Positions 10,404-45,759 of a DNA stretch of 64,000 bases are shown here, in pieces. Origin of the DNA: Actinobacteria bacterium IMCC19121 (GTDB lineage Bacteria; Actinomycetota; Actinomycetes; Nanopelagicales; Nanopelagicaceae); the NCBI GenBank assembly GCA_002284895.1, contig CP015605.1, positions 434,001-498,000 on the forward strand, in the 5' to 3' direction. Made by a program: the position numbers and the translations under genes. How positions within the stretch are numbered: the first letter of the stretch is position 1; every line of letters begins with the position of its first letter. The notes beneath the pieces were generated by a model. It was not told the DNA's origin. It saw only the letters and a program-made list of their open reading frames with translations, and did no database searches.

Positions 10404-10404
10404 A

Positions 10405-23358: not shown

Positions 23359-25137
23359 CTATTTCTTCTTATAACCCTTTGGACACACAGGCTTAAGAGC
23401 AGTTACCTTCTTGACAACTTTGCCCTTCACGCACGTGATGGTCATCTTCTTGGCTGCTACTGGTTTAAGGATTGGAGCTGGTGCAGCAACTTCTACCGGT
23501 GTTGGTGCTGGTTCTGGAGTAGCAACCACCGTTGGCGCCGGTGTTGGTGTTGGCACAGGAGCTGGCGCTTCTTGAGTCAACTTCACACGAACTGTTGGTG
23601 ACGAGTATGTGTAACCAGCTGCTGAAAGATAGAGCCAACCGTTTTTCTCAGTAACTGCAGTTGTAGCAACTTGTGAAGTACCATCGGAAGAAACGATGCT
23701 GACTGTTGCCGAAATTGGTGCTTTTGAGAAGCCATAGAGACATCTAGCAGCCTCTGAACTTAATACCAGATTGTAGTTTCCGACGTTGAGCTTGCCATTC
23801 TCGTCAAAGTGAGGAGAAGAGACTTTGTAATCAAGTGATTGGGCCTCTTTGTTAAACACTGGAGGGGAAGAGATATACATATTTGCATTGGTTGTAACAA
23901 TGCCATTTAGGCTCTTGTTATCTGATAAACATGCTGAGGTTCCCGAACTCCAAATTTCTTGAGCACTAAGAGTTCTAGCGATCCACATAGATTTACTGCC
24001 AACTGCTTTATCTTTAGCGACCTCGAGCCACCAGAGATATTCTTTAAATGCACTCTCATCATATTGATCAAAGGCCTGCAGGAGTTGAACGCTATCTCGC
24101 CCTTTTCCAAGCTTGTCGTCATAGAGGAAGTCTCCGCCCCAATCCTTCATTGCATAGAGGTAATCGTAGAGACCCTTTGGCATATCCGAATTCTTAACCC
24201 AAGCATTCAAGACTGGAACTGACACAGGACCGCCCTCTACAGAAAAGATTTGTCGTCCAGCTGAATCAGTTGAGATTTTGATTGTTGGATCTAAGAGTCG
24301 ACCATGCATAAAACTAGTGAGCTGAATGCTTGTTCTAATCTCTAATCTGTAACGAACTGCTGTTGGAAGTGGCCAAGCTAATCCGCATTCACCTGTTGTC
24401 CCATCATGTGCACCAATCACAAAGCAACCCATGGTTGGTGAATTTGCGTACCAGGCCTTTCCTGATGAATCTGCTTTTCCAGCTCTTATGCGAATATCTG
24501 GATAGGAAGGGTTCTTATCAACTGACATTGCAAATATTCCTGAATTGAATTGATGAGGATAAAGAAAGGTTTTACCCCCTTCATAACCACCTGGATGGAA
24601 GTACTCAGCAAAAACTAGGAACTTATCGCCGCCTTGATGTGTGATTCCATCAAATGTCCATATAGACGGCAGGCCACCATCTGGAATCTTCACACTCGGG
24701 TCGCCCTTAAAAGTAAAGTCAGATTTCTCAGGGAAATTCACAACGAACTTTCCTGGAATCTCTTTTCCATCTTTGATTGCAGTCACACCGATAATGCAAT
24801 TTGAATCAGCTTCAGTTTTACAAACATCTAATACTGCGTCATACCAAACGTTATCGGCATTTGCACATTTTGGATCTGCGTATGTTTGACACGTAAATGC
24901 CTCTTTTTGTACCCAAGCGCCATTTTTTTGTTCGTAGTACATACCAATCATCCGTGATTGGCGTCCTGTAATACGTCCTGCATCTTCAACTAAAATTCCG
25001 GTGTAACCACCAACGTTTTTAACGGCTGGTCCCTGATCCCAAAACTGCTCGATCGGCTTGTTATCGGCTGCTGCAAAGTTTGGGGCAAGCAAGGCAAAGG
25101 AAAGCAAGGCCATTAAGAGAATCCTAGATTTACGCAT
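23359..25137 (-). CDS. Secreted protein with two-Cys C-terminal module (family member A)
   Basis: 592 residues from ATG 25137; AGGGGAG lies 6 nt upstream, whereas the longer reading to 25185 precedes the signal peptide. The signal peptide is M-R-K-S-R-I-L-L ... N-F-A-A-A. The mature part has a Cys pair C-K-T-E-A-D-S-N-C-I, then T-S-F-M-H-G-R-L-L-D-P-T-I-K, and A-A-R-C-L-Y-G-F-S-K-A-P in a beta-rich C-terminal domain. A Pro/Thr/Ala linker leads to the final ~30 residues: T-I-T-C-V-K-G ... K-P-V-C-P-K-G-Y-K-K-K. No enzyme motif is visible. It is very close to the next gene, including the 5' leader, so the two are recent duplicates. Probably an envelope-associated protein; function unknown. Confidence 0.8.
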   Translation of the reverse strand: MRKSRILLMALLSFALLAPNFAAADNKPIEQFWDQGPAVKNVGGYTGILVEDAGRITGRQSRMIGMYYEQKNGAWVQKEAFTCQTYADPKCANADNVWYDAVLDVCKTEADSNCIIGVTAIKDGKEIPGKFVVNFPEKSDFTFKGDPSVKIPDGGLPSIWTFDGITHQGGDKFLVFAEYFHPGGYEGGKTFLYPHQFNSGIFAMSVDKNPSYPDIRIRAGKADSSGKAWYANSPTMGCFVIGAHDGTTGECGLAWPLPTAVRYRLEIRTSIQLTSFMHGRLLDPTIKISTDSAGRQIFSVEGGPVSVPVLNAWVKNSDMPKGLYDYLYAMKDWGGDFLYDDKLGKGRDSVQLLQAFDQYDESAFKEYLWWLEVAKDKAVGSKSMWIARTLSAQEIWSSGTSACLSDNKSLNGIVTTNANMYISSPPVFNKEAQSLDYKVSSPHFDENGKLNVGNYNLVLSSEAARCLYGFSKAPISATVSIVSSDGTSQVATTAVTEKNGWLYLSAAGYTYSSPTVRVKLTQEAPAPVPTPTPAPTVVATPEPAPTPVEVAAPAPILKPVAAKKMTITCVKGKVVKKVTALKPVCPKGYKKK

Positions 25138-25299
25138 TGCAGCTCCCCTGCTCGATGTAAGACTCAAAGATATCGAGAGGTTCACCGCAAGACCAGGGTT
25201 TATTTATGCGTGAGAATGAAAGTAATTTTGCCTGAGCCCTTTATTAGGGGCGCAGACGGGATAGGCACAGGGCCGGTCTAAGCCCATATCTAACCCAAG

Positions 25300-27075
25300 C
25301 TATTTCTTCTTATAACCCTTTGGACACACAGGCTTAACTGCAGTTACCTTCTTTACTACTTTGCCCTTGATACAAGAAATGGTTGTTTTCTTAATGGGCG
25401 CTGTAGTTACTGTCGGTGTTGGCGTAGGTGTTGCAGTTGCTGTCGGTGTTGGCTCTGGAGTTGGGGTAGGAGTGGGAGTAGGAGTTGGAGCAGGTGCTTC
25501 TTGAGTCAACTTCACACGAACCGTTGGAGATGAATAAGTAAAACCATTAGCTGAAAGATAGAGCCAACCGTTCTTTTCAGTCACAGCAGTTGTTGCAACT
25601 TGAGAAGAACCATCAGATGAAACAATACTGACAGTTGCTGATACTGGAGCTTTAGTAAATCCATAGATGCAGCGCGCTGCATCTGAGTTTAGGATCAAGT
25701 AGTAGTTACCAACATTGAGCTTTCCTGCCTCATTAAAGTGAGGAGACGAGACTTTGTAATCGAGAGATTGGGTCTCTTTGTTAAATGTTGGGGGAGAAGA
25801 GATATACATGCCCGCGTTAGTTGTGACAATGCCCGTCAGGTCTTTAGTACTATTTAAGCAAGAGCGTATTTGATCTCCTGCGCTCCAGATCTCATTTTCA
25901 CTTAGTGTGCGGGCAATCCACATCGTTCTATCGCCCACAGATTTATCTTTAGCAACATCTAGCCACCACAAATACTCTTTAAAGGTCTCTGCGTTGTATT
26001 GGTCAAAGTGCTGCAATAACTGCACGTTGTCACGGCTACTTCCTTTGCCATCGGTGTATACAAAGACCCCGCCCCAGTTAGGCATTGCATACAGGTAGTC
26101 ATAGAGAGCTTTTGGCATCTCTGAGTTCTTAACCCAGGTGTTTACAACAGGCACAGAGACTGAACCAGCTTCAATAGTGAAAAGCTGGTTGCCATTGCCC
26201 TCATTTGAGATTTTGATTGTTGGGTCAAGTAGACGTCCATGCATAAAACTACTGAGAGGAATAGAAGTTCTAATCTCTAAACGGAATCGAACATCTTTAG
26301 GTAATGGCCAGCTCATGGCGCACTCACCTTTATCACCGGTTGCTTGGCATCCATAGTTAGTGCCATCCCACCATGCAGCCTTACCAACTGCATCGGCTTT
26401 ACCTGCTCTGATGCTAAAGGTTGGATAGTCAGGTCCTGCAGGGTTTTTCTCTTTAGTTATTGCAAATATTCCCACATCAAATTTTTGTGGGGCAAAGTTA
26501 GTTATCTTGCTATCCCCGCGTCCAGCACCACCAAGGAAGTAACGTGGATAGACCATGAACTTATCCCCGCCTTGATGGGTGATGCCATCAAAAGTCCACA
26601 GAGATGGCAAGCCACCATCTGGGATATTGAGAGCAGCATTTCCTTTAAAGTTGTATTCATTCTTAGACGGATAACTCTCGGCAAACTTTCCTGTTATCTC
26701 TTTGCCATCTTTAATAGCAGTGACTGCAACAATGCAGTTTGTTTGGACTGTGGATGAGCAGGGCTCCAAGATTGCGTCATACCAAATGTTTTCAGCGTTA
26801 GCGCAGTTGGGATCTGAGTAAGACTTACAAGTAAATGCCTCTTTTTGAACCCAGTTGCCATCTTTTTTCTCAAAGTAGAAACCCACCATGTTGGATTGAC
26901 GTGCTGTGAGCTCAAAAGCATCTTCAACAAGAACGCCGGTGTAGCCACCGACGTTTTTAACTGCAGGTCCTTGATCCCAGAACTGCTCTATTGGCTTGTT
27001 ATCAGCTGATGCAAAGTTTGGGGCAAGCAGGGCAAAGGAAAGGACTGCCATTAATAGAACCCGAGATTTACGCAT
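25300..27075 (-). CDS. Secreted protein with two-Cys C-terminal module (family member B)
   Basis: 591 residues from ATG 27075, same AGGGGAG spacing and signal peptide as the downstream paralogue. Similarity runs the full length: F-W-D-Q-G-P-A-V-K-N-V-G-G-Y-T-G, C-S-S-T-V-Q-T-N-C-I, S-F-M-H-G-R-L-L-D-P-T-I-K, A-A-R-C-I-Y-G-F-T-K-A-P. The linker is a Thr-Pro repeat, prone to slippage at the DNA level. The end is T-I-S-C-I-K-G ... K-P-V-C-P-K-G-Y-K-K-K. About 160 nt separate it from member A, with no strong terminator, so both could be on one transcript or have separate promoters (a GCATAAATA-type element precedes both). Function unknown. Confidence 0.8.
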   Translation of the reverse strand: MRKSRVLLMAVLSFALLAPNFASADNKPIEQFWDQGPAVKNVGGYTGVLVEDAFELTARQSNMVGFYFEKKDGNWVQKEAFTCKSYSDPNCANAENIWYDAILEPCSSTVQTNCIVAVTAIKDGKEITGKFAESYPSKNEYNFKGNAALNIPDGGLPSLWTFDGITHQGGDKFMVYPRYFLGGAGRGDSKITNFAPQKFDVGIFAITKEKNPAGPDYPTFSIRAGKADAVGKAAWWDGTNYGCQATGDKGECAMSWPLPKDVRFRLEIRTSIPLSSFMHGRLLDPTIKISNEGNGNQLFTIEAGSVSVPVVNTWVKNSEMPKALYDYLYAMPNWGGVFVYTDGKGSSRDNVQLLQHFDQYNAETFKEYLWWLDVAKDKSVGDRTMWIARTLSENEIWSAGDQIRSCLNSTKDLTGIVTTNAGMYISSPPTFNKETQSLDYKVSSPHFNEAGKLNVGNYYLILNSDAARCIYGFTKAPVSATVSIVSSDGSSQVATTAVTEKNGWLYLSANGFTYSSPTVRVKLTQEAPAPTPTPTPTPTPEPTPTATATPTPTPTVTTAPIKKTTISCIKGKVVKKVTAVKPVCPKGYKKK

Positions 27076-27198
27076 TGCAGCTCCCCTGCCAGATGTAAGA
27101 CACAAAGATATCGAGGGGTTCACCGCATCGCCAAGGTCTATTTATGCATGGCGGCGCATTAACTTTGCCAATTAGCCGGAGTTTTTGGCTAAAGAAGC

Positions 27199-27399
27199 CC
27201 AACTCCAGAACCAACACCAACACCAACGGTGGTTGCTACTCCAGAACCAACACCAACACCGGTAGAAGTTGCTGCACCAGCTCCAATCCTTAAACCAGTA
27301 GCAGCCAAGAAGATGACCATCACGTATGTGAAGGGTAAAGCTACAAAGTAGATCACTGCGATTAAGCCAATCTGTCCGGCTGGCTATAAAAAGAAGTAG
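27199..27399 (+). pseudogene. Decayed 3' end of a two-Cys-module secreted protein gene
   Basis: Read on the plus strand, this gives a Pro-Thr linker (P-T-P-E-P-T-P-T-P), V-E-V-A-A-P-A-P-I-L-K-P and then the C-terminal module. It is almost identical to the end of member A, which is on the other strand. The first Cys is now Tyr (ACG TAT) and a TAG interrupts the module at 27349-27351. The second half, K-P-I-C-P-A-G-Y-K-K-K and its stop, is intact. No upstream part of the gene remains. It lies 116 nt before tRNA-Lys. Confidence 0.8.
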
Positions 27400-27514
27400 C
27401 AGCAGGATTTGCGCCTAAAGGCGCATGCTCTTAGATTGATAATTTGGATAACCACGCTCATGATGACCTAAGATGAGCCAGTTAAATGAGTTGCACATTC
27501 TTGATTAACAAGTG

Positions 27515-27587
27515 GGGCCTATAGCTCAGTCGGTAGAGCAACGGACTTTTAATCCGTGGGTCGACGGTTCGAGCCCGTCTGGGCCCA
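27515..27587 (+). tRNA. tRNA-Lys (anticodon TTT)
   Basis: A 73-nt cloverleaf. The acceptor arm GGGCCTA pairs with TGGGCCC, the D arm is GCTC...GAGC, and the anticodon stem ACGGA/TCCGT has loop CTTTTAA. The T arm GACGG-TTCGAGC-CCGTC is complete. CCA is not encoded. The gene sits in the middle of the secreted-protein island, between a pseudogene fragment and a convergent gene. Confidence 0.97.
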
Positions 27588-27601
27588 CATCTGTTCCCAG
27601 A

Positions 27602-28819
27602 TTATTTCTTTGCATAACCCTTTGGACACACGGGCTTCACTCCCGTTACCTTCTTAACAACCTTGCCTTTAACACAGGTAATTGTTGTTTTCTTTATTGG
27701 GGTAACAGTGGGTGTTGGTGAAGGAGTTGCAACCGCCGTTGGAGTTGCAACCGCCGTTGGTGTTGGGCTCGGAGTAGGCGTAGGAGCCTCTGCTTTCAAA
27801 ATTACTTTAGGTGATGAGAAGTGAAAGCCTGCAGCAGAAAAGAAGATTTGCCCATTGGATTTTCTAACATCTGTGCTGATCACACTTGCTGTGCCATCTT
27901 CATAGAGCACCTGCACACTCAGGGCAGGTGATTTTGTAAGAGTATTAGTTGGGTATTTGCAATCTAAGAACTTCTCACTTGCCCAGAGTTTAAAGAAACC
28001 AGTGTTAAGTGTGCCATCAGCTTTTTTGTGAGGGGCAAAGATAGAAAACTCTAAACTCTCAGAAGCTGCGTTCCAGATGGGATCACCTGTTGCATTGGTG
28101 TTGTGAGATTGCACGGTATATCCAGCATCAGCACACACAGGACGCCAGTAGCCTCTTGTTAGATCACTATCAGCATGGTGGATATAGAAGGCTAGAAGTG
28201 GTGTGTCAATATCTGCTTGGGCAGCAAAAATCTTTTTCTCTGGCGAATCCAACCAACCGCTTGAGTAGTCAGATATCTGAGTTGCATAGCCTGCAAGTGT
28301 CCAACGGTGACCACCTGGAATGACTTCATCCAAGAAATCAGCTTCATTGGCTTTCAATTGAATATTCATTGGCTTGAGCCAACTTGTTCTAATCTTGAGC
28401 CGTATTTTCGTATTTAGTAAATCTGCATAGTTTCCCTGCACGCGAAGTGCTGCGCCTCGAAGATTTGAAGCCTTATCAATGATGTGGGTGGGGGTTTCTA
28501 GGTCAACAAGAAGATTGTAAGAAGTTGAGCCTACGAGCCACTGAGATTGGAACTGCTTCCTTAGATTTCCTGATTCATCAGTTGATTCAGGATTAGTGAT
28601 CAGTGAGTTAAAAGTGGCTTTTGCAAAATCGCCACCACGCTTGGCAAATTCAACAGATTCGATGCAATCCAATTCAGTTGCGCTTCTGCAATTACCTAAT
28701 GAATAGATGGCAGGAAGGGTGAGGTCCTTTACCCAGCTCTCATCTGCAGCATGCAGGGCTTGGGGTTGGATGGTTAATGCAATCAATGAGGCGATAAGTA
28801 GCAACACCCTTTTACGCAT
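27602..28819 (-). CDS. Secreted protein with two-Cys C-terminal module (family member C)
   Basis: 405 residues from ATG 28819, preceded at 6 nt by TACAAT, so leaderless. Signal peptide M-R-K-R-V-L-L-L ... A-L-H-A. The N-terminal Cys pair is N-C-R-S-A-T-E-L-D-C-I-E-S-V, the same pattern as other members. It is shorter than A and B because the middle domain is reduced. The C-terminal beta domain has F-L-D-C-K-Y-P-T-N-T-L-T-K-S-P, then a linker with Pro/Thr/Ala repeats and the module T-I-T-C-V-K-G ... K-P-V-C-P-K-G-Y-A-K-K. It is divergent from the sigma factor gene with a 50-bp shared promoter region, which suggests control by that sigma factor. Function unknown. Confidence 0.78.
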   Translation of the reverse strand: MRKRVLLLIASLIALTIQPQALHAADESWVKDLTLPAIYSLGNCRSATELDCIESVEFAKRGGDFAKATFNSLITNPESTDESGNLRKQFQSQWLVGSTSYNLLVDLETPTHIIDKASNLRGAALRVQGNYADLLNTKIRLKIRTSWLKPMNIQLKANEADFLDEVIPGGHRWTLAGYATQISDYSSGWLDSPEKKIFAAQADIDTPLLAFYIHHADSDLTRGYWRPVCADAGYTVQSHNTNATGDPIWNAASESLEFSIFAPHKKADGTLNTGFFKLWASEKFLDCKYPTNTLTKSPALSVQVLYEDGTASVISTDVRKSNGQIFFSAAGFHFSSPKVILKAEAPTPTPSPTPTAVATPTAVATPSPTPTVTPIKKTTITCVKGKVVKKVTGVKPVCPKGYAKK

Positions 28820-28825
28820 GCGGCA

Positions 28826-28863
28826 ATTGTAAGGGTTGTAATGCAAAGGGGTGGGGTTAGGCT
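28826..28863. promoter_or_regulatory. Divergent promoters of member C and the ECF sigma gene
   Basis: Minus strand: TACAAT at 28826-28831, 6 nt from ATG 28819. Plus strand: TAGGCT at 28858-28863, 6 nt from ATG 28870, with a possible -35 TTGTAA at 28836-28841 (16-bp spacer). The two promoters share about 38 bp. Confidence 0.5.
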
Positions 28864-28869
28864 ACCCCC

Positions 28870-29475
28870 ATGACCAAAGCATCGGCCCAGGTGGAGTTCA
28901 CCTTATGGCTAACGCAGCGACAGAGCATGTTGATACGTGCTGCGCGCACTATCTGTTTTGATGCACAAAATGCTGAAGATGTTTTGCAAGAAGCACTCAT
29001 GGATGTCTTTGAGCGCTGGGACAAAGTAAGCAAACATGAAAACCCCGAGGCCTATGTCATCCGTGTAATGGTTTCAAAGCACATAGACATGCGACGCAAG
29101 TGGGCAAGACGCCGAGATGAAAAAGAAGTCAGCTTTGATTTACCCGAAGAAGTACTACAAATTGCAGATCAATCAGATGATGTATTGCAGCGTTTATTAG
29201 TGCAATCTGCGCTCAAATCTTTAAGTGCAATGCAAAGAGCAGTTTTAGTGCTGACGTATGAATATGGGTTTGTTTTGCGTGAGGTGGCAGAAGTATTAGA
29301 GATTCCAACTGGTACAGCTGCCTCTCACCTTGCCCGAGGCAAGGCTGCAGTTGCTGCCCACATTGGTCTGATGCCAGAGTTAGAGAAGTCTTTTAAGAAG
29401 GGTGTGACAAGCTCTTCTCCAAAGGCAGAGTTAGAAAATGAAGTAGTAACTGCAGAGGTGGTGGACAATGAGTGA
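28870..29475 (+). CDS. ECF RNA polymerase sigma factor (SigE-like)
   Basis: 201 residues. Region 2 (residues ~10-80) has C-F-D-A-Q-N-A-E-D-V-L-Q-E-A-L-M-D-V-F and the region 2.4-like Y-V-I-R-V-M-V. Region 4 (~115-165) has A-M-Q-R-A-V-L-V-L-T-Y, then a helix-turn-helix L-R-E-V-A-E-V-L-E-I-P-T-G-T-A-A-S-H-L-A-R-G. A ~35-residue C-terminal extension follows. It directs polymerase to a small regulon. The next gene overlaps by 8 nt and encodes a membrane protein suited to be its anti-sigma factor. The surrounding secreted-protein genes are the obvious candidate targets. Confidence 0.9.
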   Translation: MTKASAQVEFTLWLTQRQSMLIRAARTICFDAQNAEDVLQEALMDVFERWDKVSKHENPEAYVIRVMVSKHIDMRRKWARRRDEKEVSFDLPEEVLQIADQSDDVLQRLLVQSALKSLSAMQRAVLVLTYEYGFVLREVAEVLEIPTGTAASHLARGKAAVAAHIGLMPELEKSFKKGVTSSSPKAELENEVVTAEVVDNE

Positions 29476-30172
29476 TGTTGAGCCATTAATCCGCCGCGAA
29501 CTGCAGTGGATGGCACTTGGGACGCTAGAGGATAAAGATCTAGCATCAATAATTATTGCTAAGTCACGGCGCAGGAGGCTGCGCCGATTGGCTTCAATGT
29601 TGATCTTTGGGCTCTCTATTTCGGTTATTTCAATTCAAGGCTATGTCCTTGCTAATAATCTTCTTAATCCTGAGAGCACCACTACTTCTACTACATCTTC
29701 TGACACCTATGAGAACTCCTCAGTTGAGCCTACGAGTGAACCTGTGGCACCAACCCAAAATTCTTCACCTACTGGTGCACAAATCAGGGGAGTTATTTCG
29801 GATTACCCAGTAACGTGGGAAGAATCCATCGGAGACTTGAGCGCAATTTCTAAAGCAGCTGGGCTTGGGGACACTCTGGGGGGTTTAACTGCGCAAGGGT
29901 TATATGTAACATGGAGTAAATGCCGTGTTGGGGTATGCCCAACGACCTGGACCTTAAGTGCTAGAAACAAGACGGAGGACATAATTTTCGTGGCACCTTC
30001 ACTGATGGTTTATGTGGACCACTCTCCACTTGTGAGTTCTTCACGCCCACTTTCTGTTATTCCAGGGGGCAATGTCAACCTAGTCTTTACTTTCCCAGAG
30101 CTTAAGGACATGACAAATGTCGATGATAAGGCAACATGGCAATGGAACTGGTTCTTAACGGTGGCCCGATGA
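29468..30172 (+). CDS. Single-pass membrane protein, putative anti-sigma factor
   Basis: 234 residues: ~45 cytosolic residues with R-R-R-R-L-R-R at the membrane, one TM segment (~45-67), a Ser/Thr/Pro-rich stretch, then an extracytoplasmic beta-rich domain with C-R-V-G-V-C. No zinc-binding HxxxCxxC anti-sigma motif is seen, so this is called by position and topology only. The start overlaps the sigma gene by 8 nt, and the stop overlaps the next start (ATGA). Signals sensed outside by the C-terminal domain could release the sigma factor. Confidence 0.6.
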   Translation: MSDVEPLIRRELQWMALGTLEDKDLASIIIAKSRRRRLRRLASMLIFGLSISVISIQGYVLANNLLNPESTTTSTTSSDTYENSSVEPTSEPVAPTQNSSPTGAQIRGVISDYPVTWEESIGDLSAISKAAGLGDTLGGLTAQGLYVTWSKCRVGVCPTTWTLSARNKTEDIIFVAPSLMVYVDHSPLVSSSRPLSVIPGGNVNLVFTFPELKDMTNVDDKATWQWNWFLTVAR

Positions 30173-31458
30173 AAAACACACGACTCACTCTTCGCTCGAT
30201 TTTTGTTGCACTGACTTTAATTGCCCAATTAGTAATTGGCACACATGCAGCCCAAGCCGAGGTGGTCTTACCTAAAGGCTCTTGGCTCAACTGCGCCAGT
30301 GCATCTGATACCTATTGCATTGATTCTGTTTCAGTAATTCCAACCACTGGCAAAATGTTGGCTCTCACCTGGACAACTTCAGGATCAAATGATGCTGCCG
30401 CTAACCCCGCAATTGCCTCTGGCAAAGCCTTACCTGGACGCTGGACTAGCTCTTCTTGGTCATCTCTTGGTTTAGGCACTGCTGGTTATGATGGAATTTA
30501 TATTGATGCAAAAGCTGCAAATGAATTTGTGCCTTGGGTCTATGTGGATGCACAACCAACCCTGTCTAGTTCAGGTGGAGTGAAGTTAGCTGCTCGAGCT
30601 TCTAATCTTAATTTCGCTGCAGATCTTGACCAAGCTGTGACAATCTCTATAAAACTACGTTTAGGTGATTTCCAAAGTGGTGTGACATTTGGCGTGGGAA
30701 GTGATGTTTCAGTAGACACGAGCGTTACTGGTGGTGTTACAACTATGGTCATTGAAGGAAACCCAGTTCTTGTGCCACTAGCTAAATCAAGTAAAGATTG
30801 CGTGGGCAATACTGGAGTCTCTGCTGCATTAATTCGCCAGTTCCAAACTGTTATTGTTCCTCAAAATGATCCACTTGGATTTACCGTCGCAGGTACAAGC
30901 GGCAAGCTCTATATTGGCTCCAATGGTCTGTGCAAGCTCTCCACACCAACGTGGAACGCTGAAACAAAGCGCTTTAAATACACCGCTAGCGCTCCGCGCT
31001 TATCCCCAGATGGATCAACAGTAAATAAAGGTTTCTATCGCGCCATCATCCCAATTGCTGATGCCAAGCTTTTCTGGGGTCTTACCAATCCCAACGATGC
31101 TGCTAAAGCTCTCGTTGTTTCAATCATTACGGCAGAGGCTGGATCCAAGGTTGCTTTAAGTTCAATTTCGGTCAATAAGACCAATATCGTCATCGATGTT
31201 TCTAACTTTGATTTCCCAGATCCTTCCCTCGATATAGCCCTAAACCCGAACTACACCGGGAGCAGTGCGGCCACAGAGGCAAACCAAAATAGCTCTGGGC
31301 CAGCGGCCACCGGCACATCCCAAACCGCGGCCAACAACCAGGTTGTGACGGCGGCCAAGGCTAAAACGACCACAATCACCTGCGTGAAGGGCAAAACCAC
31401 CAGAAAAGTCACCGCGGTCAAGCCTGTGTGCCCAAAGGGATTTACTCAAAAGAAATAA
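30169..31458 (+). CDS. Secreted protein with two-Cys C-terminal module (family member D)
   Basis: 429 residues from ATG 30169, which shares ATGA with the anti-sigma-like stop; the ATG at 30136 lies in the previous gene and before the signal peptide. Signal peptide ends H-A-A-Q-A. The Cys pair is N-C-A-S-A-S-D-T-Y-C-I-D-S-V. The middle domain (R-W-T-S-S-S-W-S-S-L-G-L-G-T-A-G-Y-D-G) resembles member E rather than A/B. An Ala/Thr/Asn linker precedes T-I-T-C-V-K-G ... K-P-V-C-P-K-G-F. Translational coupling to the sigma/anti-sigma pair makes it part of that operon; it could be the periplasmic partner that the anti-sigma factor monitors. That role is conjecture. Confidence 0.8.
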   Translation: MKNTRLTLRSIFVALTLIAQLVIGTHAAQAEVVLPKGSWLNCASASDTYCIDSVSVIPTTGKMLALTWTTSGSNDAAANPAIASGKALPGRWTSSSWSSLGLGTAGYDGIYIDAKAANEFVPWVYVDAQPTLSSSGGVKLAARASNLNFAADLDQAVTISIKLRLGDFQSGVTFGVGSDVSVDTSVTGGVTTMVIEGNPVLVPLAKSSKDCVGNTGVSAALIRQFQTVIVPQNDPLGFTVAGTSGKLYIGSNGLCKLSTPTWNAETKRFKYTASAPRLSPDGSTVNKGFYRAIIPIADAKLFWGLTNPNDAAKALVVSIITAEAGSKVALSSISVNKTNIVIDVSNFDFPDPSLDIALNPNYTGSSAATEANQNSSGPAATGTSQTAANNQVVTAAKAKTTTITCVKGKTTRKVTAVKPVCPKGFTQKK

Positions 31459-31549
31459 AACCACCCCGATCTGCATAATTTGGGGGCTGTTCTGCGGTGG
31501 AACTCATAAGTAAACTCGGCCAAAAGCCATATCGCTCCTGGGGGTAAAA

Positions 31550-33532
31550 ATGAAGAAGTTCACAGTAAGCCGCGTAGTAGTAGCGGTTGCAGCATTGGCA
31601 ATGTTGGCCAATGGCATTGCACCATCTAGCGCGGCAACTCTGCGCGTTCCTAAGACAGCATTTCCTGCTTGCGCAGTTCAAAATGGTGTTTATTGCATTG
31701 AGTCAGTCACAGTAACGACTGCTCAAGGAAAAGTTGTTCCTTTGCAGTGGGTTGCAAATGGAGTTGCAGTTCCTGGACAAAGTGCCACTAATGGCATTTC
31801 CTTTGCACCAATTGCAAAGGTAGTAAAGGGAATTGTTAAAGAAAATGGTTGGTGGACTACTCAGTATCAGAGAGAAGCTCTAGCGGCCGACACAACAGTA
31901 TTTGCTGACATTTCATCTTTGGTTGGCACAGCAGAGTTCCCTGAAATTGGCGCTCGCTATGACTCAGCAACTAAGACTTATGACATTACTAAGCCAGTTG
32001 AAGCATTTTCCGCAATCATCGATTGCTGGGATTCAAAGACTAATACTTCATCAAAGCAAGCATTTAGTAGCTGTTATAAAGGCGCAGTTGCAGCTGTTAA
32101 TGAGGCAGAAGTTAAGTTCATCTTTAACTACTCATCAGCAGCTCTTGCTGCAGCTGCAGCTAAAGATCTAGATGCTGCAACTTGGGTTGACCTCAAGGAT
32201 CTAGCAGCTCAAGGTCAACAGCCAGCAGTTAATGCTCGCTACGATGCAACTAAGAAAACTTTTGACAAGTTGATACCTTTGTACACTCCAGTGTGGGTTA
32301 CAAATAATTCATTAATCAATGGCTGGGATGTTGCTGGTACTCCTGCAACGCTTCCAACAATTGTTCCAGTGGCTCCAGCTCCTACAGAATCTGCATCAGC
32401 AGGCTCAGTGGCCGCAGCACCTGCACCTGTAGATCCAAATGCTGCTCCAGCAACTGCTGTAGCTGGTGCAACATCTGCACCAGATGCACAAGGCGTTGTA
32501 CCTGCTCCACTTGCACCAAATGAGCAGACTGCAGTGATGCCACCAGTAGAAGCTGGCCGCGCCCTTACAGGCCGCTGGACTTCACCACTGTGGAACACAC
32601 TTGGTCTAGGTTCAATTGGTTATGACGGATTATTTGTTGATGCCAAGGCAGCTAACGAATTCGTTAACCACGTATTTATCGATGTTGTTCCAACTTTGAC
32701 ATCAGCAGAGAACAAAGTAACTCTTGCTGGTCAACCAGGAAACAAGATATATGCAGTCAGCCTTGATTCAGACATCGTTATCTCAGTAAAGGTTCGCACC
32801 GGTGATATCAAGACTGGTGTAACTGTTGCTGTGGGTGTTGATACAACTGTCACATCAACTGTTGGACAAGAGTTCACAACTTTGACTGTTGAAGGAACCG
32901 CAGTTTCAGTTCCTCTAGCTAAGACTTCAGCTGATTGCGCAGGCGAAACTGGAGTTGCAAAGGCGATGGTGCGTCAGTTCCAAACACTGATCATCGCCCA
33001 AAATGACACATCAGGCTTTGGTGTTGAGGGAACATCGGGCAATATGTATGTTGGATCAAACGGTGTCTGCTCATTGAGCACACCAACATGGGATCCAGTT
33101 GCGAAGTCATTTAGCTGGACTACTGCAGCTCCACACTTTGCACCTGATGGAACAACCGTCAACCGTGGTTTCTATAAGGCTGTTATTCCTTTCAAGGATG
33201 CAGCTCTTCTATGGGGACTAACAAATCCAGCAGATGCTGCAACAGCATTGACAGTCTCTATTGCAACTGAGGCCGGGGGTTCTTCAGCAGCAATTGCAGT
33301 CGTTTCTGCAAAGAATGGAAATATCATCATCGATGTTTCTGGTTTCGAGTACTCAAAGCCACGTCTAACAATCATGATGAAGAAGGGTTACAAAGCTTCT
33401 AACAAGAAGATTTCATCCCTTGCAGCACCTAAGTACACAATCACTTGTGCACGCGGTGCCTCAACTAAGAAGGTAGAGGGAACCAAGCCTGTATGTCCTA
33501 AGGGATATAAGGCAGTTGGCCCTCGCTTCTAA
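31550..33532 (+). CDS. Secreted protein with two-Cys C-terminal module (family member E)
   Basis: 660 residues. GGGGG is 6 nt before the ATG. Signal peptide ends P-S-S-A-A. Cys pair A-C-A-V-Q-N-G-V-Y-C-I-E-S-V. Two related segments with A-R-Y-D-x-x-T-K-x-x-D (residues ~140 and ~230) look like an internal duplication. A Pro/Ala linker then leads to a domain homologous to the middle of member D (R-W-T-S-P-L-W-N-T-L-G-L-G-S-I-G-Y-D-G). The module is T-I-T-C-A-R-G ... K-P-V-C-P-K-G-Y with a longer tail (KAVGPRF). The codon pattern (many GTT, GCA, AAG) suggests strong expression. A good terminator follows. Function unknown. Confidence 0.8.
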   Translation: MKKFTVSRVVVAVAALAMLANGIAPSSAATLRVPKTAFPACAVQNGVYCIESVTVTTAQGKVVPLQWVANGVAVPGQSATNGISFAPIAKVVKGIVKENGWWTTQYQREALAADTTVFADISSLVGTAEFPEIGARYDSATKTYDITKPVEAFSAIIDCWDSKTNTSSKQAFSSCYKGAVAAVNEAEVKFIFNYSSAALAAAAAKDLDAATWVDLKDLAAQGQQPAVNARYDATKKTFDKLIPLYTPVWVTNNSLINGWDVAGTPATLPTIVPVAPAPTESASAGSVAAAPAPVDPNAAPATAVAGATSAPDAQGVVPAPLAPNEQTAVMPPVEAGRALTGRWTSPLWNTLGLGSIGYDGLFVDAKAANEFVNHVFIDVVPTLTSAENKVTLAGQPGNKIYAVSLDSDIVISVKVRTGDIKTGVTVAVGVDTTVTSTVGQEFTTLTVEGTAVSVPLAKTSADCAGETGVAKAMVRQFQTLIIAQNDTSGFGVEGTSGNMYVGSNGVCSLSTPTWDPVAKSFSWTTAAPHFAPDGTTVNRGFYKAVIPFKDAALLWGLTNPADAATALTVSIATEAGGSSAAIAVVSAKNGNIIIDVSGFEYSKPRLTIMMKKGYKASNKKISSLAAPKYTITCARGASTKKVEGTKPVCPKGYKAVGPRF

Positions 33533-33544
33533 GTAGATAAGTAA

Positions 33545-33590
33545 GTGCGGGCCGCTCCTAAGAACTCTTTAGGAGCGGTTCGCACTATCT
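33545..33590 (+). terminator. Hairpin terminator after member E
   Basis: GTGCG...CGCAC encloses an inner stem of about ten pairs (CCGCTCCTAA with TTAGGAGCGG). The 3' side lacks a long T run, so it may be a weak or bidirectional terminator. Confidence 0.65.
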
Positions 33591-33626
33591 AATTTCACGT
33601 GCAGTTCATACAAGGTGAGGGAGAAC

Positions 33627-35402: not shown

Positions 35403-35421
35403 TAGAAATGGACGGTGCACA

Positions 35422-37299: not shown

Positions 37300-37303
37300 A
37301 TCT

Positions 37304-37537: not shown

Positions 37538-37645
37538 AAAGTCAATGAGCACGAATTTGATGTTGATGGGCTCATAAAGGCATTTAGGACTATATGTTTT
37601 AGAATGACCCAGGTCTAAATCGAACTGTAAAGGGTACCCTTAGAC

Positions 37646-38113: not shown

Positions 38114-38123
38114 GAACCAGGTT

Positions 38124-38948: not shown

Positions 38949-38988
38949 AAGAGAATTTAGTTTGATTACGACTTGGAGAGTGTCGTGA

Positions 38989-41900
38989 ATGGCTGAAAAA
39001 CTTGATCGGCTAATCGAGTCTTCGCCATTTCATAATGCGTCAAGAAAAATGGCACGGATATTAGTTTTAACTTTATTGATTTCGATTTTCTCTCCGCTTA
39101 ACATTGATAAGTCAGAAGCTGTTCTTCCTGCTTGCACACCAGATCGAACTGCCACATATTTGGGAAATACATATCTTGAGTTCACAACAGTAACTTCCGG
39201 TTGCACTTGGACCACCCCAGCAGGGATTTCTTCTCTTTCAGAAGTGATAATAGTTGGCGGCGGCGGCGGCGGTGGTGGTGGTGGTTCTTGGGCTGGTGGA
39301 GCAGGAGCAGGAGCAGTAATTCGATTAACATCTGTCTCTGTTGCATCATCCGTTGATATTTCGGTTGGCGGCGGCGGCGCAGTCGGTGCTACTTCCTCTA
39401 CTTGCACACTAAGTATCGGTGCAAATGGAAGTAATTCTTCTTTTGGATCATCAATCGCCTTTAGTGGCGGTGGTGGTGGTCCCGATCAACAAGCAACCTG
39501 TAGTAATAATTACCCAAAGACTCCTGTTTATTATGCAGGTGCAAACGGCGGAAGCGGTGGCGGCGGCGGAGAGGCAGGCAACGGTCAAACAGTTAACAGC
39601 ACTTCATCATCGACTGCTTCCACGTCGTCACCTGCGGGCCTCGGAAATTCGGGTGGAACATATGTTTATTCGGGGGCTGGTGGATACAGAGGTGGCACGG
39701 GAGGTGGTGGTGCAGGTGGTGCAGGTGGCTCTTTAAGTGTTACGGCTGGATCAGGTCCTGGTGGCGCTGGCGGTGCAGGAATTTCCTATAGCGTGCTCAC
39801 AGAAAATCGCTCAGCTGTCGCATCTCCAACACAGAATTCAACACTTGGAGTACTTGTTGGATCAACTTACTTTGTTGCGGGCGGAGGGTCTGGATCTCAA
39901 TCAGTAGCCACCTTTGGTTCATTTGCCGCAGGCGGAACAGGCGGCGGCGGAACGGGGACGAATAGGTTTTCAAATAGTGTTATGGCTGCTTGCACCCCCG
40001 GCGTAGCCAAAACAGGCGGTGGTGGTGGCGCGGGGTGTGCGGGTGGTTCTGGATTTGTGTTGGTTGTTTATTCAACTCCAACAACCCCGTCATACACTTC
40101 ACTTTCACCAACCTCAGGAACAACTGCGGGTGGAACCTCCGTAACTATCACGGGAACTAATCTTTCTAGTGCAACCTCGGTAACGGTAGGTGGTAGTACA
40201 GCAACCATAAATAGCAATTCTTCTACTGCGATCACCATAACAACACCAGCTGGTAGCGCTGGTGCTAAAGATGTGGTGATTACAACAGCCGGTGGTTCTG
40301 TGACTGCTGGCAGCGCATTTACTTATGCAGTCCCGGCTCCGTCATACACTTCACTTTCACCAACCTCAGGAACAACTGCGGGTGGAACCTCCGTAACTAT
40401 CACGGGAACTAATCTTTCTAGTGCAACCTCGGTAACGGTAGGTGGTAGTACAGCAACCATAAATAGCAATTCTTCTACTGCGATCACCATAACAACACCA
40501 TCTGGTAGCGCTGGTGCTAAAGATGTGGTGATTACAACAGCGGGTGGTTCTGTGACTGCTGGCAGCGCATTTACATATGTCGTCCCGGCCCCCACATATA
40601 CCTTACTTTCGCCGACTTCGGGAACTACTGCGGGTGGAACCTCTGTCACCATCGTCGGAACTAATCTTTCTAGTGCAACCTCGGTAACGGTAGGTGGTAG
40701 CACAGCAATTATTAATAGCAATTCTGCTACTGCGATCACCATAACAACGCCATCTGGCAGCGCTGGTGCTAAAGATGTGGTGATTACAACAGCCGGTGGT
40801 TCTGTGACTGCTGGGAGCGCATTTACTTATCTTTCTCCAGGCCTTACGCCAATCTTTGATGCGCCTACGCGAACATCTGGTGGATTTAGCGTTTCAATAA
40901 CAAATTTTGACGCAACTTATACATGGACGAATCTAACGGTGAGTGCAGGTTCAGTAGCAGTCACTTCTACCGAGGGCACAACACGAGTGATCACAGTTAC
41001 TGGCCTAACTTCAGGTCAGTCAGCAACTGTTACTCAAGTGACAACAAAGACAGGGTTTACAAATGCAAGTGCAAACGTTTCAGGAACAGCTCTCACTACC
41101 CAAAGCATCACCTGGTCTCCCACTACATCACTCTCAACAACGGACTCTCCTGCGACCCCTTCTACTTTGGCAAGTAGCCTTGGATCTGTAGCAATATCCT
41201 ATTCATTAGTAAATGCAGGAACCACTGGTTGCACCATAGATTCATCGACAGCAGTAATTACATTTAATGCTCCAGGTAGTTGTGTTGTTAGAGCGTCAAC
41301 AAATGCAACAGCAACATACACAGCAGGAAATACCGACGTTACATTCGTTATCAGCCAGGCAACAAGATTAATTACCGTTACCCAAACATCAAATGGATCT
41401 ATTTCGCCAACAACTACCACTCTTAACTATGGTGCTGACCAACTTTTTACCTTCACACCAAATACAGGATATTCAGTAGCAACAATAACTGTCGACGGTT
41501 CGTTGCTTTCGGGTGCTGCCCTGGAGGCTGCAATTGCAACTGGGTACACCTTTACAAATGTGACCTCAGCGCGAAGTATCACTGCAACCTATAGCGCCAA
41601 TTCCTACTCCATCACCTATAAAGCTGGCACTAATGGCTCCGGTTCAGATTTAACTCAGAGCTTCACATTTGGCGCTAGTGCAACATTAAAGGATTCAACA
41701 GCTGCCCTTACACGAACTGGTTATGCAATCGCAGGATGGTCAACGACAGATGGCTCTGCACAGACACATGCCTTAAGCGCTTCCTATTCATCTGCATCCA
41801 ATTTGATTCTCTATCCAGTATGGAGTGCTAATACTTACACGATTACCTATAAAGCTGGCACTAGTGGCAGTGGCGCAGATTTAACTCAGAGTTTTAGCTT

Positions 41901-44900
41901 TGGAAGCAATCCAACATTAAAGGATGCAACAGCTGCTCTGGCTAGGACTGGTTATGCAATCGCAGGATGGTCAACAACAGATGGATCTGCACAGACACAT
42001 GCCTTAAGCGCTTCCTACTTAACTGCTGACAATCTGATTCTTTATCCAGTATGGAGTGTTAATTCCTACTCCATCACCTATAAAGCTGGCACTAATGGCT
42101 CCGGTTCAGATTTAACTCAGAGCTTCACATTTGGCGCTAGTGCAACATTAAAGGATTCAACAGCTGCCCTTACACGAACTGGTTATGCAATCGCAGGATG
42201 GTCAACAACAGATGACGCGGCTCAGACACATGCCTTAAGCGCTTCCTATTCATCTGCAGCCAATTTGATTCTCTATCCAGTATGGAGTGCTAATACCTAC
42301 TCCATTACCTATAAAGCTGGCACTAATGGCACCGGAACAGATTTAACTCAGAGCTTTACATTTGGAAGCAATCCAACATTAAAGGATGCAACAGCTGCCC
42401 TTACTCGAACTGGTTATGCAATCGCAGGATGGTCAACAACAGATGGCGCTGCTCAGACACATGCTTTAAGCGCTTCCTATTCATCTGCAGCCAATTTGAT
42501 TCTCTATCCAGTATGGAGCGCTAATACCTACACGATTACCTATAAAGCTGGCACTAATGGCAGCGGCGCAGATTTAACTCAGAGCTTTACCTTTGGAAGC
42601 AATCCAACATTAAAGGATGCAACAGCTGCTCTGACGCGAACTGGTTATGCAATCGCAGGATGGTCAACAACAGATGGCGCGGCTCAGACACATGCCTTAA
42701 GCGCTTCCTACTTAACTGCTGACAATCTGATTCTTTATCCAGTATGGAGTGTTAATTCCTACTCCATTACTTATAAAGCTGGCACAAATGGAACCGGAAC
42801 AGATCTGACACAGAGCTTCACATATGGCGCTAGCGCAACATTAAAGGATGCAACAGCTGCCCTTACACGAACTGGTTATGCAATCGCAGGATGGTCAACA
42901 ACAGATGGCGCTGTTCAGACACATGCTTTAAGTGCTTCCTATTCATCTGCAGCCAATTTGATTCTCTATCCAGTATGGAGCGCTAATACCTACTCCATTA
43001 CCTATAAAGCTGGCACTAATGGCAGCGGCGCAGATTTAACTCAGAGCTTTACCTTTGGAAGTAATCCTGCGCTTAAAGATGCAACAGCTGCCCTTACACG
43101 AACTGGTTATGCAATCGCAGGATGGTCAACAACAGATGGCGCTGTCCAGACACATGCTTTAAGTGCTTCCTACTTAACTGCTGACAATCTGATTCTTTAT
43201 CCAGTATGGAGTGCTAATATTTACATAATCACCTTTAACGCCAATGGAACAACTGGTGGAACTACTCCAAGTATTGCCTATGGATCTAATGCGCTCTCTT
43301 CTGCTCCCGGACTAAATAGAAGTGATTACTCATTAGCGGGTTGGTCAGAGACTACATCGGGCAGTGTTCTTGCCTCTTGGAGTGTTACTGGCACTAAGAC
43401 TTTATATGCCATTTGGACACCTGCATTTGTTGTCACCTTTGTGAGTGATGGAAGCCCTGTTGCATCACTAACTTACACAACAACTGCGCTAGCAAAACCA
43501 ACTGATCCCACTAAGACTGGTTATGGCTTTACTACCTGGAAAGATGCATCTAACAACACCATCTCGTGGCCCTACACACCCACGACCTCCATCACATTAA
43601 CTGCTTACTGGTTGATTAACAGCTATGTCATCATCATTACTCAAAGCGCTAACGGATCTATATCACCCACATCTGCAACTCTTGAGCACGGGGCCAGCCA
43701 ACTCTTCACATTTACTCCTGCAACTGGTTACTCAGTTGCAACTATTACTATCGATGGCAGCGCACTCTCTGGATCAGCTCTTACAACTGCGATCACATCG
43801 GGTTACACATTTACCAGTATCAGCGCTGCACACAGTGTCGGCGCAACCTATGTGATCCTCTCTTACGTAATCACCTATAAAGCGGGCACAAACGGAATCG
43901 GAACAGATCTGACACAGAGCTTCACATATAGCGCCACTGCGAGCTTGAAGGATGCAACTGCGGCCCTGACTAGGACTGGTTACTCCATCACAGGATGGTC
44001 AACGACAGATGCAAGTGCACAGACACATGCTTTAAACGCTTCCTACTCAACTAATGCCAACTTGATTCTCTATCCCGTATGGAACATAAACACTTATAGA
44101 GTAACTTTCGATTCGCCTAAAGCAACTGTCACAGAACTTATTGTTGACTACATCTACGCGAGCCCTGCGCTTACTTTGCCTAGCCGGACACGCGCAAATT
44201 ATGTGCTTCAAGGATGGTATTCAGCTGCAACTGGAGGAACAAAAATTGGAATTGCCACTGCAAGTTATACACCGACCGACTCCATCACCCTATATGCGCA
44301 GTGGGTTCAAGAAACTTTAAATGGTATTGAAGCTTCAAAACTTACATTTGCTGGAGATATACGTGCCTCTGCAACACAAGCTCGCACACTAGTAGCAGAG
44401 ACTGCGTCTAGTTCAGTATCAGTCCGCGTTCCTGCAGGGGCATTACCTGAAGGAACTTTTGTTGAGGTTTATTCACTGAGCACGGATGAATACTCACGAG
44501 GTCCCGTGGGAATTCAAGGTGATTACATTGTCAATCTAATTGTTGCTTGGCACACCATTGATGAGTTAGTTCCTGCCGCAACTACACCAATAATCATGAC
44601 GGTCAGGAATGCAACAATAAAACAGGGCGCTAATGTATACGCAATTCAAGGCTCTGTCGTGAAGAAATTAGCTACAGCAACTGCTGATGGCGAAGTAGTG
44701 ATCCTTATCAGTGAAGATCCCATCATCACGATTACAAACCCAGTTGTTTCAACTTCTGGCGGTGGTGGTGGTTCTGGCGGTGGTGGTGGTTCTGGCGGCG
44801 GTGGTGGTGGTGCACCTTCAGCTGGTGGTGGCGCACCTTCAGGTGGTGGTGTTGTGGCAGCTGTTAGTACCCCGAAAACAACTGCAATCAATCTGCAGCT

Positions 44901-45759
44901 AGTTGATCCTCTTGAGCCAACAAAGGCCTATAACAAATCTGCATGCGTGGATATCTATACCCACACAACAACTCCTCAATTACTGGGTTCTGCTTGCTCA
45001 ACTCCTGACGGTCAAGTAAGTATCTCGGTCATGGATTCCAAGATTTCACTGCGTGTTTATAATGTTGGAAGTGGAAGTGTTTATAGAGAATATGACGGAG
45101 TTGTACAAAACGATGTAGTTACAATTGAATATTCAAAGTATTTCCCCGGCACTAGCCGCTGGATAGTGAATGTTTCAACCGTTAATTCTATTACCTCGCC
45201 TGCTATTGATATAAAAAATGTTGAAGATGCACAAACTCAAGCAAATAAAATCATCGAAGAGGCAAAGAAACAGGCTGCACAAATTCTAGAAGAAGCTAAG
45301 AGTGAAATTAAGACAGTAACTGAGACCGAGACAGCCAAAATTTTAGATGCTGCAACAGCAACGGCGGCAAAAATTCTAGAAGATGCCAACGCTCAGGCCG
45401 CTAAAGTTCTAGCTGAGTTGAAGGCTGCTGCTGCCACCCCTAAGCCAACCGCTAAACCGAGCCCAACTCCAACACCAAAGGCACCTGCCGCCACTCCAAA
45501 GCCAACTCCAACTCCGGTGAAGGCTGTGCCAAAAGCCTTAACAATTTCTTGCAAGAAGGGAAGTCTTGTTAAGAGCGTTACAAGCACATCACCAAAGTGT
45601 CCAAGTGGCTATACGCAGATCAAGGAAACAATTGCAACACCTTCCCCAATAAAAGTGGTTGAAAAGCCGGAGACCATCACGTGTGTTAAGGGTGCGCTCT
45701 CACGTAAAGTAACTGGAATAAAGCCTGTTTGTCCTACAGGCTTTAGAAAAAAGGCTTAA
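38989..45759 (+). CDS. Giant secreted repeat protein with doubled two-Cys C-terminal module (family member H)
   Basis: 2256 residues, ATG with GGAGAG 8 nt upstream. An N-terminal signal segment (~22-45, ending K-S-E-A) leads to a Gly-rich domain (~75-365), three IPT/TIG repeats (~368-620), a Ser/Thr-rich domain with a Gly-Ser-Ile-Ser bacterial repeat, then seven near-identical InlB/Flg_new-type repeats (77 residues each, Y-K-A-G-T-N-G ... L-I-L-Y-P-V-W-S) plus four diverged copies. A beta-domain, poly-Gly linker, an Ala/Glu coiled coil (~2085-2145) and a Pro-Thr linker follow. It ends with two copies of the module (C-K-K-G ... P-K-C-P-S-G-Y and C-V-K-G ... P-V-C-P-T-G-F). Probable cell-surface adhesin or stalk, inferred. 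Confidence 0.85.
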   Translation: MAEKLDRLIESSPFHNASRKMARILVLTLLISIFSPLNIDKSEAVLPACTPDRTATYLGNTYLEFTTVTSGCTWTTPAGISSLSEVIIVGGGGGGGGGGSWAGGAGAGAVIRLTSVSVASSVDISVGGGGAVGATSSTCTLSIGANGSNSSFGSSIAFSGGGGGPDQQATCSNNYPKTPVYYAGANGGSGGGGGEAGNGQTVNSTSSSTASTSSPAGLGNSGGTYVYSGAGGYRGGTGGGGAGGAGGSLSVTAGSGPGGAGGAGISYSVLTENRSAVASPTQNSTLGVLVGSTYFVAGGGSGSQSVATFGSFAAGGTGGGGTGTNRFSNSVMAACTPGVAKTGGGGGAGCAGGSGFVLVVYSTPTTPSYTSLSPTSGTTAGGTSVTITGTNLSSATSVTVGGSTATINSNSSTAITITTPAGSAGAKDVVITTAGGSVTAGSAFTYAVPAPSYTSLSPTSGTTAGGTSVTITGTNLSSATSVTVGGSTATINSNSSTAITITTPSGSAGAKDVVITTAGGSVTAGSAFTYVVPAPTYTLLSPTSGTTAGGTSVTIVGTNLSSATSVTVGGSTAIINSNSATAITITTPSGSAGAKDVVITTAGGSVTAGSAFTYLSPGLTPIFDAPTRTSGGFSVSITNFDATYTWTNLTVSAGSVAVTSTEGTTRVITVTGLTSGQSATVTQVTTKTGFTNASANVSGTALTTQSITWSPTTSLSTTDSPATPSTLASSLGSVAISYSLVNAGTTGCTIDSSTAVITFNAPGSCVVRASTNATATYTAGNTDVTFVISQATRLITVTQTSNGSISPTTTTLNYGADQLFTFTPNTGYSVATITVDGSLLSGAALEAAIATGYTFTNVTSARSITATYSANSYSITYKAGTNGSGSDLTQSFTFGASATLKDSTAALTRTGYAIAGWSTTDGSAQTHALSASYSSASNLILYPVWSANTYTITYKAGTSGSGADLTQSFSFGSNPTLKDATAALARTGYAIAGWSTTDGSAQTHALSASYLTADNLILYPVWSVNSYSITYKAGTNGSGSDLTQSFTFGASATLKDSTAALTRTGYAIAGWSTTDDAAQTHALSASYSSAANLILYPVWSANTYSITYKAGTNGTGTDLTQSFTFGSNPTLKDATAALTRTGYAIAGWSTTDGAAQTHALSASYSSAANLILYPVWSANTYTITYKAGTNGSGADLTQSFTFGSNPTLKDATAALTRTGYAIAGWSTTDGAAQTHALSASYLTADNLILYPVWSVNSYSITYKAGTNGTGTDLTQSFTYGASATLKDATAALTRTGYAIAGWSTTDGAVQTHALSASYSSAANLILYPVWSANTYSITYKAGTNGSGADLTQSFTFGSNPALKDATAALTRTGYAIAGWSTTDGAVQTHALSASYLTADNLILYPVWSANIYIITFNANGTTGGTTPSIAYGSNALSSAPGLNRSDYSLAGWSETTSGSVLASWSVTGTKTLYAIWTPAFVVTFVSDGSPVASLTYTTTALAKPTDPTKTGYGFTTWKDASNNTISWPYTPTTSITLTAYWLINSYVIIITQSANGSISPTSATLEHGASQLFTFTPATGYSVATITIDGSALSGSALTTAITSGYTFTSISAAHSVGATYVILSYVITYKAGTNGIGTDLTQSFTYSATASLKDATAALTRTGYSITGWSTTDASAQTHALNASYSTNANLILYPVWNINTYRVTFDSPKATVTELIVDYIYASPALTLPSRTRANYVLQGWYSAATGGTKIGIATASYTPTDSITLYAQWVQETLNGIEASKLTFAGDIRASATQARTLVAETASSSVSVRVPAGALPEGTFVEVYSLSTDEYSRGPVGIQGDYIVNLIVAWHTIDELVPAATTPIIMTVRNATIKQGANVYAIQGSVVKKLATATADGEVVILISEDPIITITNPVVSTSGGGGGSGGGGGSGGGGGGAPSAGGGAPSGGGVVAAVSTPKTTAINLQLVDPLEPTKAYNKSACVDIYTHTTTPQLLGSACSTPDGQVSISVMDSKISLRVYNVGSGSVYREYDGVVQNDVVTIEYSKYFPGTSRWIVNVSTVNSITSPAIDIKNVEDAQTQANKIIEEAKKQAAQILEEAKSEIKTVTETETAKILDAATATAAKILEDANAQAAKVLAELKAAAATPKPTAKPSPTPTPKAPAATPKPTPTPVKAVPKALTISCKKGSLVKSVTSTSPKCPSGYTQIKETIATPSPIKVVEKPETITCVKGALSRKVTGIKPVCPTGFRKKA
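40090..40845 (+). repeat. Three tandem IPT/TIG-coding repeats, period 252 bp
   Basis: The units begin at 40090, 40342 and 40594 with an exact 252-bp (84-codon) period. The first two are almost identical in DNA; the third is diverged mostly at synonymous sites. Each encodes one IPT/TIG Ig-like domain with S-P-T-S-G-T-T-A-G-G and T-I-T-x-G-T-N-L. Confidence 0.9.
41605..43221 (+). repeat. Seven tandem InlB-type (Flg_new) coding repeats, period 231 bp
   Basis: The AAA of Y-K-A-G recurs at 41620, 41851, 42082, 42313, 42544, 42775 and 43006, an exact 231-bp period. The DNA is near identical with small block differences (for example GAC-AAT versus GCC-AAT before L-I-L-Y-P), suggesting recent expansion or gene conversion. 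A diverged copy recurs at about 43870. Confidence 0.95.

Follow-up and report, generated by a model that had tools for sequence, protein, structure and literature searches.

A portable two-cysteine module on secreted-looking proteins of freshwater actinobacteria: a candidate cationic envelope-retention hairpin

Why should otherwise different, secreted-looking proteins encoded side by side share one short segment with two cysteines, and what would that segment do for them? We addressed this question in a stretch of 64,000 nucleotides from Actinobacteria bacterium IMCC19121 (contig CP015605.1, positions 434,001 to 498,000; hereafter, the window). Freshwater actinobacteria of the acI group are among the most abundant cells of lakes and are hard to grow, and, to our knowledge, little is known about the making of their surface, the first thing that phages and grazers encounter.

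A gene island that shares one module

Upon six-frame translation of the window, we obtained nine matches to the module motif across eight open frames, which bears out an earlier note that had counted eight intact genes ending in the module and nine copies. Seven of these genes carry one C-terminal copy each, and the gene for a protein of 2256 aa carries two. The island is laid out as follows.

23359-25185, minus strand: secreted-looking protein A1 (core type A), C-terminal module at 23362-23442
25300-27123, minus strand: secreted-looking protein A2 (core type A), C-terminal module at 25303-25383
27310-27396, plus strand: decayed module copy with an internal stop and the first Cys replaced, resembling the A1 C-terminus
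27602-28846, minus strand: secreted-looking protein C, C-terminal module at 27605-27685
28870-29475, plus strand: ECF-type sigma factor (Pfam Sigma70_r2 and Sigma70_r4_2), gene order kept in relatives
29468-30172, plus strand: putative anti-sigma factor, overlapping the sigma gene, with one hydrophobic segment seen by eye
30136-31458, plus strand: secreted-looking protein B1 (core type B), C-terminal module at 31372-31455
31550-33532, plus strand: secreted-looking protein B2 (core type B), C-terminal module at 33437-33514, then a short tail
33615-35402, plus strand: secreted-looking protein A3 (core type A), C-terminal module at 35319-35399
35422-37299, plus strand: secreted-looking protein A4 (core type A), C-terminal module at 37216-37296
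38989-45759, plus strand: 2256-aa protein with Gly_rich_2, TIG and Flg_new repeats, modules at 45541-45621 and 45673-45756

The module is about 28 residues long, and its two Cys are separated by exactly 15 residues in 9/9 window copies, just as the earlier note had described; T-I, C, G, V, P, C-P and G are invariant across the nine. Searching the whole genome (1.51 Mb in one contig, nearly complete) with a degenerate DNA pattern for the module, we found 15 matches against none for the same pattern read backward, and a profile built from the nine copies recovered 18 places, the weakest at E 9.6e-10, indicating that the module is not a product of chance. In total, 14 proteins of the genome carry 17 intact copies between them, and the decayed copy comes in addition. 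The module corresponds to no named family, as had been claimed: at E <= 1, Pfam gave no match over the module in the eight window proteins and NCBIfam none near cut-off in the module region, and the weak NCBIfam matches that did occur, all far under cut-off, were centred on the Pro/Thr linker, with some extending into the module. Models of defence systems matched none of the eight proteins. Four module strings were not printed in the literature searched, where titles and the opening lines of abstracts were also silent on the module. A word search of the accessible part of PMC5301498 gave no match, and the accessible part of PMC6802176 contained whiB and none of the words trypsin, protease, peptidase, secreted and surface.

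The cores in front of the module are partly related to one another. Type-A cores hold additional conserved Cys, and protein C is related to type A across about 111 residues. Three related genomes carry a type-A gene near the orthologue of the window's aminotransferase gene, with 65-86% identity to A1/A2 and with differing neighbours, an arrangement suggestive of a single site occupied by a flexible island. Three side observations concern other proteins of this genome. A 386-aa protein (locus L146, 10559-11719, minus strand) has a divergent module-like stretch with shorter Cys spacing near its end, which may point to a wider superfamily. The N-terminal part of A4 (35422-37299) and a protein at another locus (L147, 2513-4450) share, by eye, another kind of Cys-pair motif close to the N-terminus, with a Trp after it, which resembles a rearrangement of the same strands. 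Elsewhere in the window, an 895-aa protein (10348-13035, plus strand) gave weak metallopeptidase matches under the cut-offs.

With the profile search confined to the organism's own phylum, the module was found in 172 of the 251 genomes sampled from the order (E <= 0.001), with up to 23 copies in one genome and a single copy in many, counts that are not independent events because the genomes of one order are related. The phylum sample contained it in 3/396 genomes, the source genome counted, and the class to which the two outside genomes belong contained it in 7/247, spread over four genera and two families. Within the genus sample, the DNA pattern matched 27/31 genomes, the source genome included, of which a few are chance matches, since the backward control also matched some of these genomes. 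Among the 80 loci returned are those of Candidatus Planktophila lacus MMS-21-148 and Actinobacteria bacterium IMCC26103, alongside many MAGs from lakes or reservoirs; we take the relatives Planktophila lacus and IMCC26103 to be acI freshwater actinobacteria, and some MAG titles (Bifidobacterium, Streptomyces, Chloroflexi) are probably misnamed. One recognisable tag, present in up to 23 copies per genome, marks candidate surface proteins of acI.

Position, cargo and predicted fold

We assembled a census of 156 distinct frames from the fetched loci, of which one, cut at its 3' side, was dropped, leaving 155. The last module lies within 7 residues of the frame end in 152 of them, a share that is biased upward because most loci were fetched via patterns and profiles from C-terminal copies. 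One copy is present in 151/155 frames and two to four in the other four. The Cys pair is conserved in 163/163 census copies, in a collection whose retrieval favoured conserved copies, with a spacing of 15 residues in 158 and 16 in five. A linker, Pro/Thr-rich or coiled, often precedes the module, and the last residue is K or R in 145/165 tails. This combination of a near-terminal position, a basic end and a preceding linker would fit a sorting signal at the C-terminus, recognised and cleaved by a dedicated enzyme and then attached to the envelope, similar to the LPXTG/sortase and PEP-CTERM/exosortase systems.

Several results, however, speak against such a signal. By a simple hydropathy rule, 0/165 tails have a membrane-like segment before the basic end. 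Profile PF04203 found no sortase in the source genome, with control matches in 3/14 named genomes; across the order, sortase occurs in 16/101 genomes and is absent in 85/101, the source genome among the latter, and the 16 sortase-bearing genomes have between 0 and 8 modules. The module also comes in arrays of two to five copies (five by eye); at a locus from the class of the two outside genomes (L161), tandem modules without linkers, five by eye and four by profile, follow a core whose end resembles that of type A. Furthermore, the module occurs at the other end of the protein. While 13 of the 14 module proteins of the source genome carry it C-terminally, one (L148, 4197-4850, minus strand) has it immediately after the signal peptide. 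In this protein and in its relatives from five further genomes (L215-L219), which were chosen because their DNA match read like a variant of it and which therefore give no rate, 6/6 members have the module at the mature start, followed by a Thr/Pro/Lys- or Ala-rich linker and then by another domain; the spacing between the Cys is 13 residues in two of the six. The N-terminal arrangement recurs at a locus from the same outside class (L160). This family shows that a C-terminal position is not obligatory for the module, and the expectation that it would always be C-terminal had to be abandoned. Together, the missing membrane segment, the tandem copies and the N-terminal family mark the module off from a classical sorting signal, and we consider a dedicated cut-and-join enzyme improbable; of the earlier likening to "a sorting or wall-binding signal", we retain the second half only, and that as a hypothesis.

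The proteins that carry the module look exported and are diverse. A simple signal-peptide rule was passed by 123 of the 127 full-length module frames, in line with the earlier description of secreted proteins, yet the rule is loose, as it was also passed by 190/396 other frames in the same loci (compared to 120/123 module frames there). Upon single-linkage clustering, 159 cargo regions fell into 31 clusters, the largest with 84 members and including types A and B, in support of the earlier claim of attachment to different domains. Among ten cargo representatives, Pfam clearly matched kelch, RCC1, laminin-G-like, periplasmic-binding and Ig-like domains and weakly matched trypsin, GH43 and one low-complexity family, with two left without a match; the trypsin match is clear in other members.

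AlphaFold2 predicted a hairpin for the module on two different cargos. For A1, modelled from 52 alignment rows with a mean pLDDT of 83.8, residues 581-607 are predicted to form a hairpin plus a third, short strand, and their block means are 90-93. For a phage protein of another cargo cluster, modelled from 7 rows, the mean pLDDT was 43.8 and the module hairpin reached 81-87. The Cys-bearing hairpin for which the earlier note had proposed a structure prediction is thus a confident model on both proteins. Every scored copy of the module has a positive net charge (+2 to +10, mean +7.9). A charge-rich tail that aids export or stability, and that has no specific target, would account for the lysine-rich end and for the many cargos, but it would leave unexplained a conservation that exceeds the needs of charge (the invariant T-I, C, G, V, P, C-P and G) as well as a hairpin predicted on two different cargos, and we think this reading unlikely. 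Hairpins are able to pair with each other, and a homotypic cross-linker, in which modules assemble with one another into a protein coat, through exchange of disulfides or pairing of strands, and require no wall ligand, would suit the strict Cys pair and the genomes with many copies, up to 23. The uniformly positive charge disfavours self-association, however, and many genomes have just a single copy; a cross-linking coat hence appears to us a rather unlikely, if slightly more attractive, alternative.

Other structural comparisons named no relative. One match of the module to a solved-structure sequence (E 0.66 over 11 residues) was taken as chance, and the one Foldseek match of the A1 model at E <= 0.001 (E 1.6e-4, TM 0.14) was taken as noise. 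VIA-align with the same model gave 3wno as its best row (Z 4.5, rmsd 4.0, 97 residues within 426-537), too weak for naming a fold, and a library of viral structures gave no match to the model at E <= 0.001.

Overall, we favour, with moderate confidence, the reading of the module as a position-independent, cationic and probably disulfide-bonded surface-retention module. It would be a small autonomous fold, a two-strand beta hairpin with a short closing strand and a net charge of about +8, whose two Cys probably form one disulfide. Exported proteins would carry it mostly C-terminally, and N-terminally in one family, and it would hold them non-covalently on the cell envelope, where its ligand would most likely be an anionic polymer of the wall or else the surface of the membrane, and avidity would rise with tandem copies. 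Against this reading, a search for VKOR as a disulfide-forming partner gave no match in this genome (0/1), with control matches in 3/14 named genomes. On this retention reading, the module offers a handle on what holds proteins to a cell that has no sortase.

The sigma factor locus and a promoter-like motif

The gene next to the sigma factor gene, for which Pfam gave no match, putatively encodes its anti-sigma factor, judging from its position and one hydrophobic segment. We collected 16 sigma loci, of which three (L162, L171 and L172) end at a contig edge and four (L174-L177) are of lower identity. In all nine that remain, which have a close sigma orthologue and come from eight genomes (two are from G006), the sigma gene is followed by the putative anti-sigma gene and then by a type-B module gene. 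The four lower-identity loci have no adjoining type-B gene, and one of them (L177) has another module gene nearby.

A block of the form GCATAA-N16-CGGT is common to regions upstream of module genes. In the window it occurs three times.

25184-25209, minus strand: promoter-like motif before A1
27122-27147, minus strand: promoter-like motif before A2
31473-31498, plus strand: promoter-like motif before B2

These three matches, each before a module gene, compare with 0.27 expected, and 1 of 100 shuffles reached three. The open-frame starts of A1 (23359-25185) and A2 (25300-27123) are probably 16 codons too early; the real starts are probably the ATGs at about 25137 and about 27075 (both on the minus strand), before the signal peptides, and we prefer these later starts because they fit the promoter-like motif better. 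Across the whole genome, spacers of 15-17 gave eight matches versus four for the reversed pattern, and at spacer 16, four of the five matches lie before module genes. Of the 34 distinct N16 sites in the fetched loci, 27 precede module genes (24 scored by script and three, in the cut loci of A1, A2 and B2, by hand), a proportion that is partly circular, because some of those upstream stretches are where the motif was noticed and because module genes were the centre of most fetched loci, and that gives no fair rate, since module genes abound in the loci and the loci are partly related. The controls in the same loci preceded module genes in 0/5 (N15/N17) and 0/2 (reversed motif) cases. As a side observation, the motif also stands before the sigma homologue itself at two of the lower-identity loci (L174, 3784-3809, and L175, 504-529, both plus strand), as in self-regulation.

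Genomes with an orthologue of the sigma factor are rich in modules: the median is 9 (n=37) versus 1 in genomes that lack it (n=208), among related genomes, and at least 7 modules were found in 27/37 versus 16/208. Six genomes at 53-57% sigma identity were left out of this comparison and two partial matches (G486, G638) counted as positive; the comparison assumes that both scans drew the same 251 genomes, which the shared handles fit. As 16/208 sigma-less genomes hold at least 7 modules and the motif precedes just 26 of 157 module genes, general control does not lie with the sigma factor. We infer that the sigma factor reads GCATAA-N16-CGGT and suggest that, where the sigma/anti-sigma pair is present, it would switch on some of the module proteins via such promoters, which would make part of the coat inducible. 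The module thereby points to a possible inducible regulon. Considering all evidence, a portable cationic hairpin for envelope retention, partly inducible through the sigma factor, is the explanation that we find best, and we place it somewhat above even chance.

Phage-borne copies and known anchoring systems

Two scans of viral contigs, where "viral" is the collection's own label except where phage-type genes were checked, yielded 21 module loci on 18 contigs (for example, L029 3402-5090, L034 4086-5090 and L031 3861-5090); one of the 18, L194, has a partial match only. The module proteins that these contigs encode look exported. A trypsin-like protease with a module is present on nine viral contigs, five recognised by Pfam and four by similarity, and the residues at the catalytic His, Asp and Ser positions are invariant in 12 aligned protease members, eight of them from viral contigs. 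Eight viral contigs encode a module protein of 562 to 568 aa that is directly preceded by a terminase-like gene in 8/8 cases, named terminase by PHROGs in L029 and L193. Other phage-type genes are an endolysin (L183, L184), a tail fibre (L191) and a WhiB-like gene (L034). A relative of the cargo of the 562-aa protein occurs in some host genomes, e.g., G014 and G442. The eight phage module proteins compared with PHROG families gave no match, and the module consensus had none among annotated phage and plasmid records. The phage proteases may act on the host surface. We tentatively propose, as a speculation more doubtful than not, that the module is a surface-display address label, widespread in one order of very abundant freshwater bacteria, that phages took over, exporting during infection tagged trypsin-like proteases that stick to the host envelope and trim host surface proteins, for instance blocking competing phages. 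The phage-borne copies make such an unusual manipulation of the host surface testable.

The known systems to which the module can be compared differ in how far the likeness goes. One comparison is with the sorting signals of the LPXTG/sortase and PEP-CTERM/exosortase systems (PMC1569441). Like the module, both are C-terminal homology regions with a basic end on otherwise different exported proteins. Unlike LPXTG signals, the module has no membrane segment, is found at either end and in tandem copies, and occurs in a source genome that has no sortase; unlike PEP-CTERM, it has no membrane helix between motif and basic end (0/165 tails). Tachyplesin is a beta-hairpin cationic peptide that is small, disulfide-held and highly positive. 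The module resembles it as a small high-charge hairpin, but differs in being a domain of larger proteins.

Repeats of the CWB2 type are thought to bind an anionic wall polymer. They are an example of the non-covalent wall-binding repeats of Gram-positive bacteria (PMC4973711). For CWB2, SLH, LysM and other wall-binding domains, the module region of the eight window proteins gave no Pfam match and no NCBIfam match near cut-off (E <= 1), and the module differs from CWB2-type repeats in matching no curated family, in its size of about 28 residues with one Cys pair, and in that single copies are the rule (151/155 frames). It resembles them in occurring on different secreted proteins, single or in tandem, and it has the portability of non-covalent wall-binding modules: it sits on different proteins, at either end, and can be repeated.
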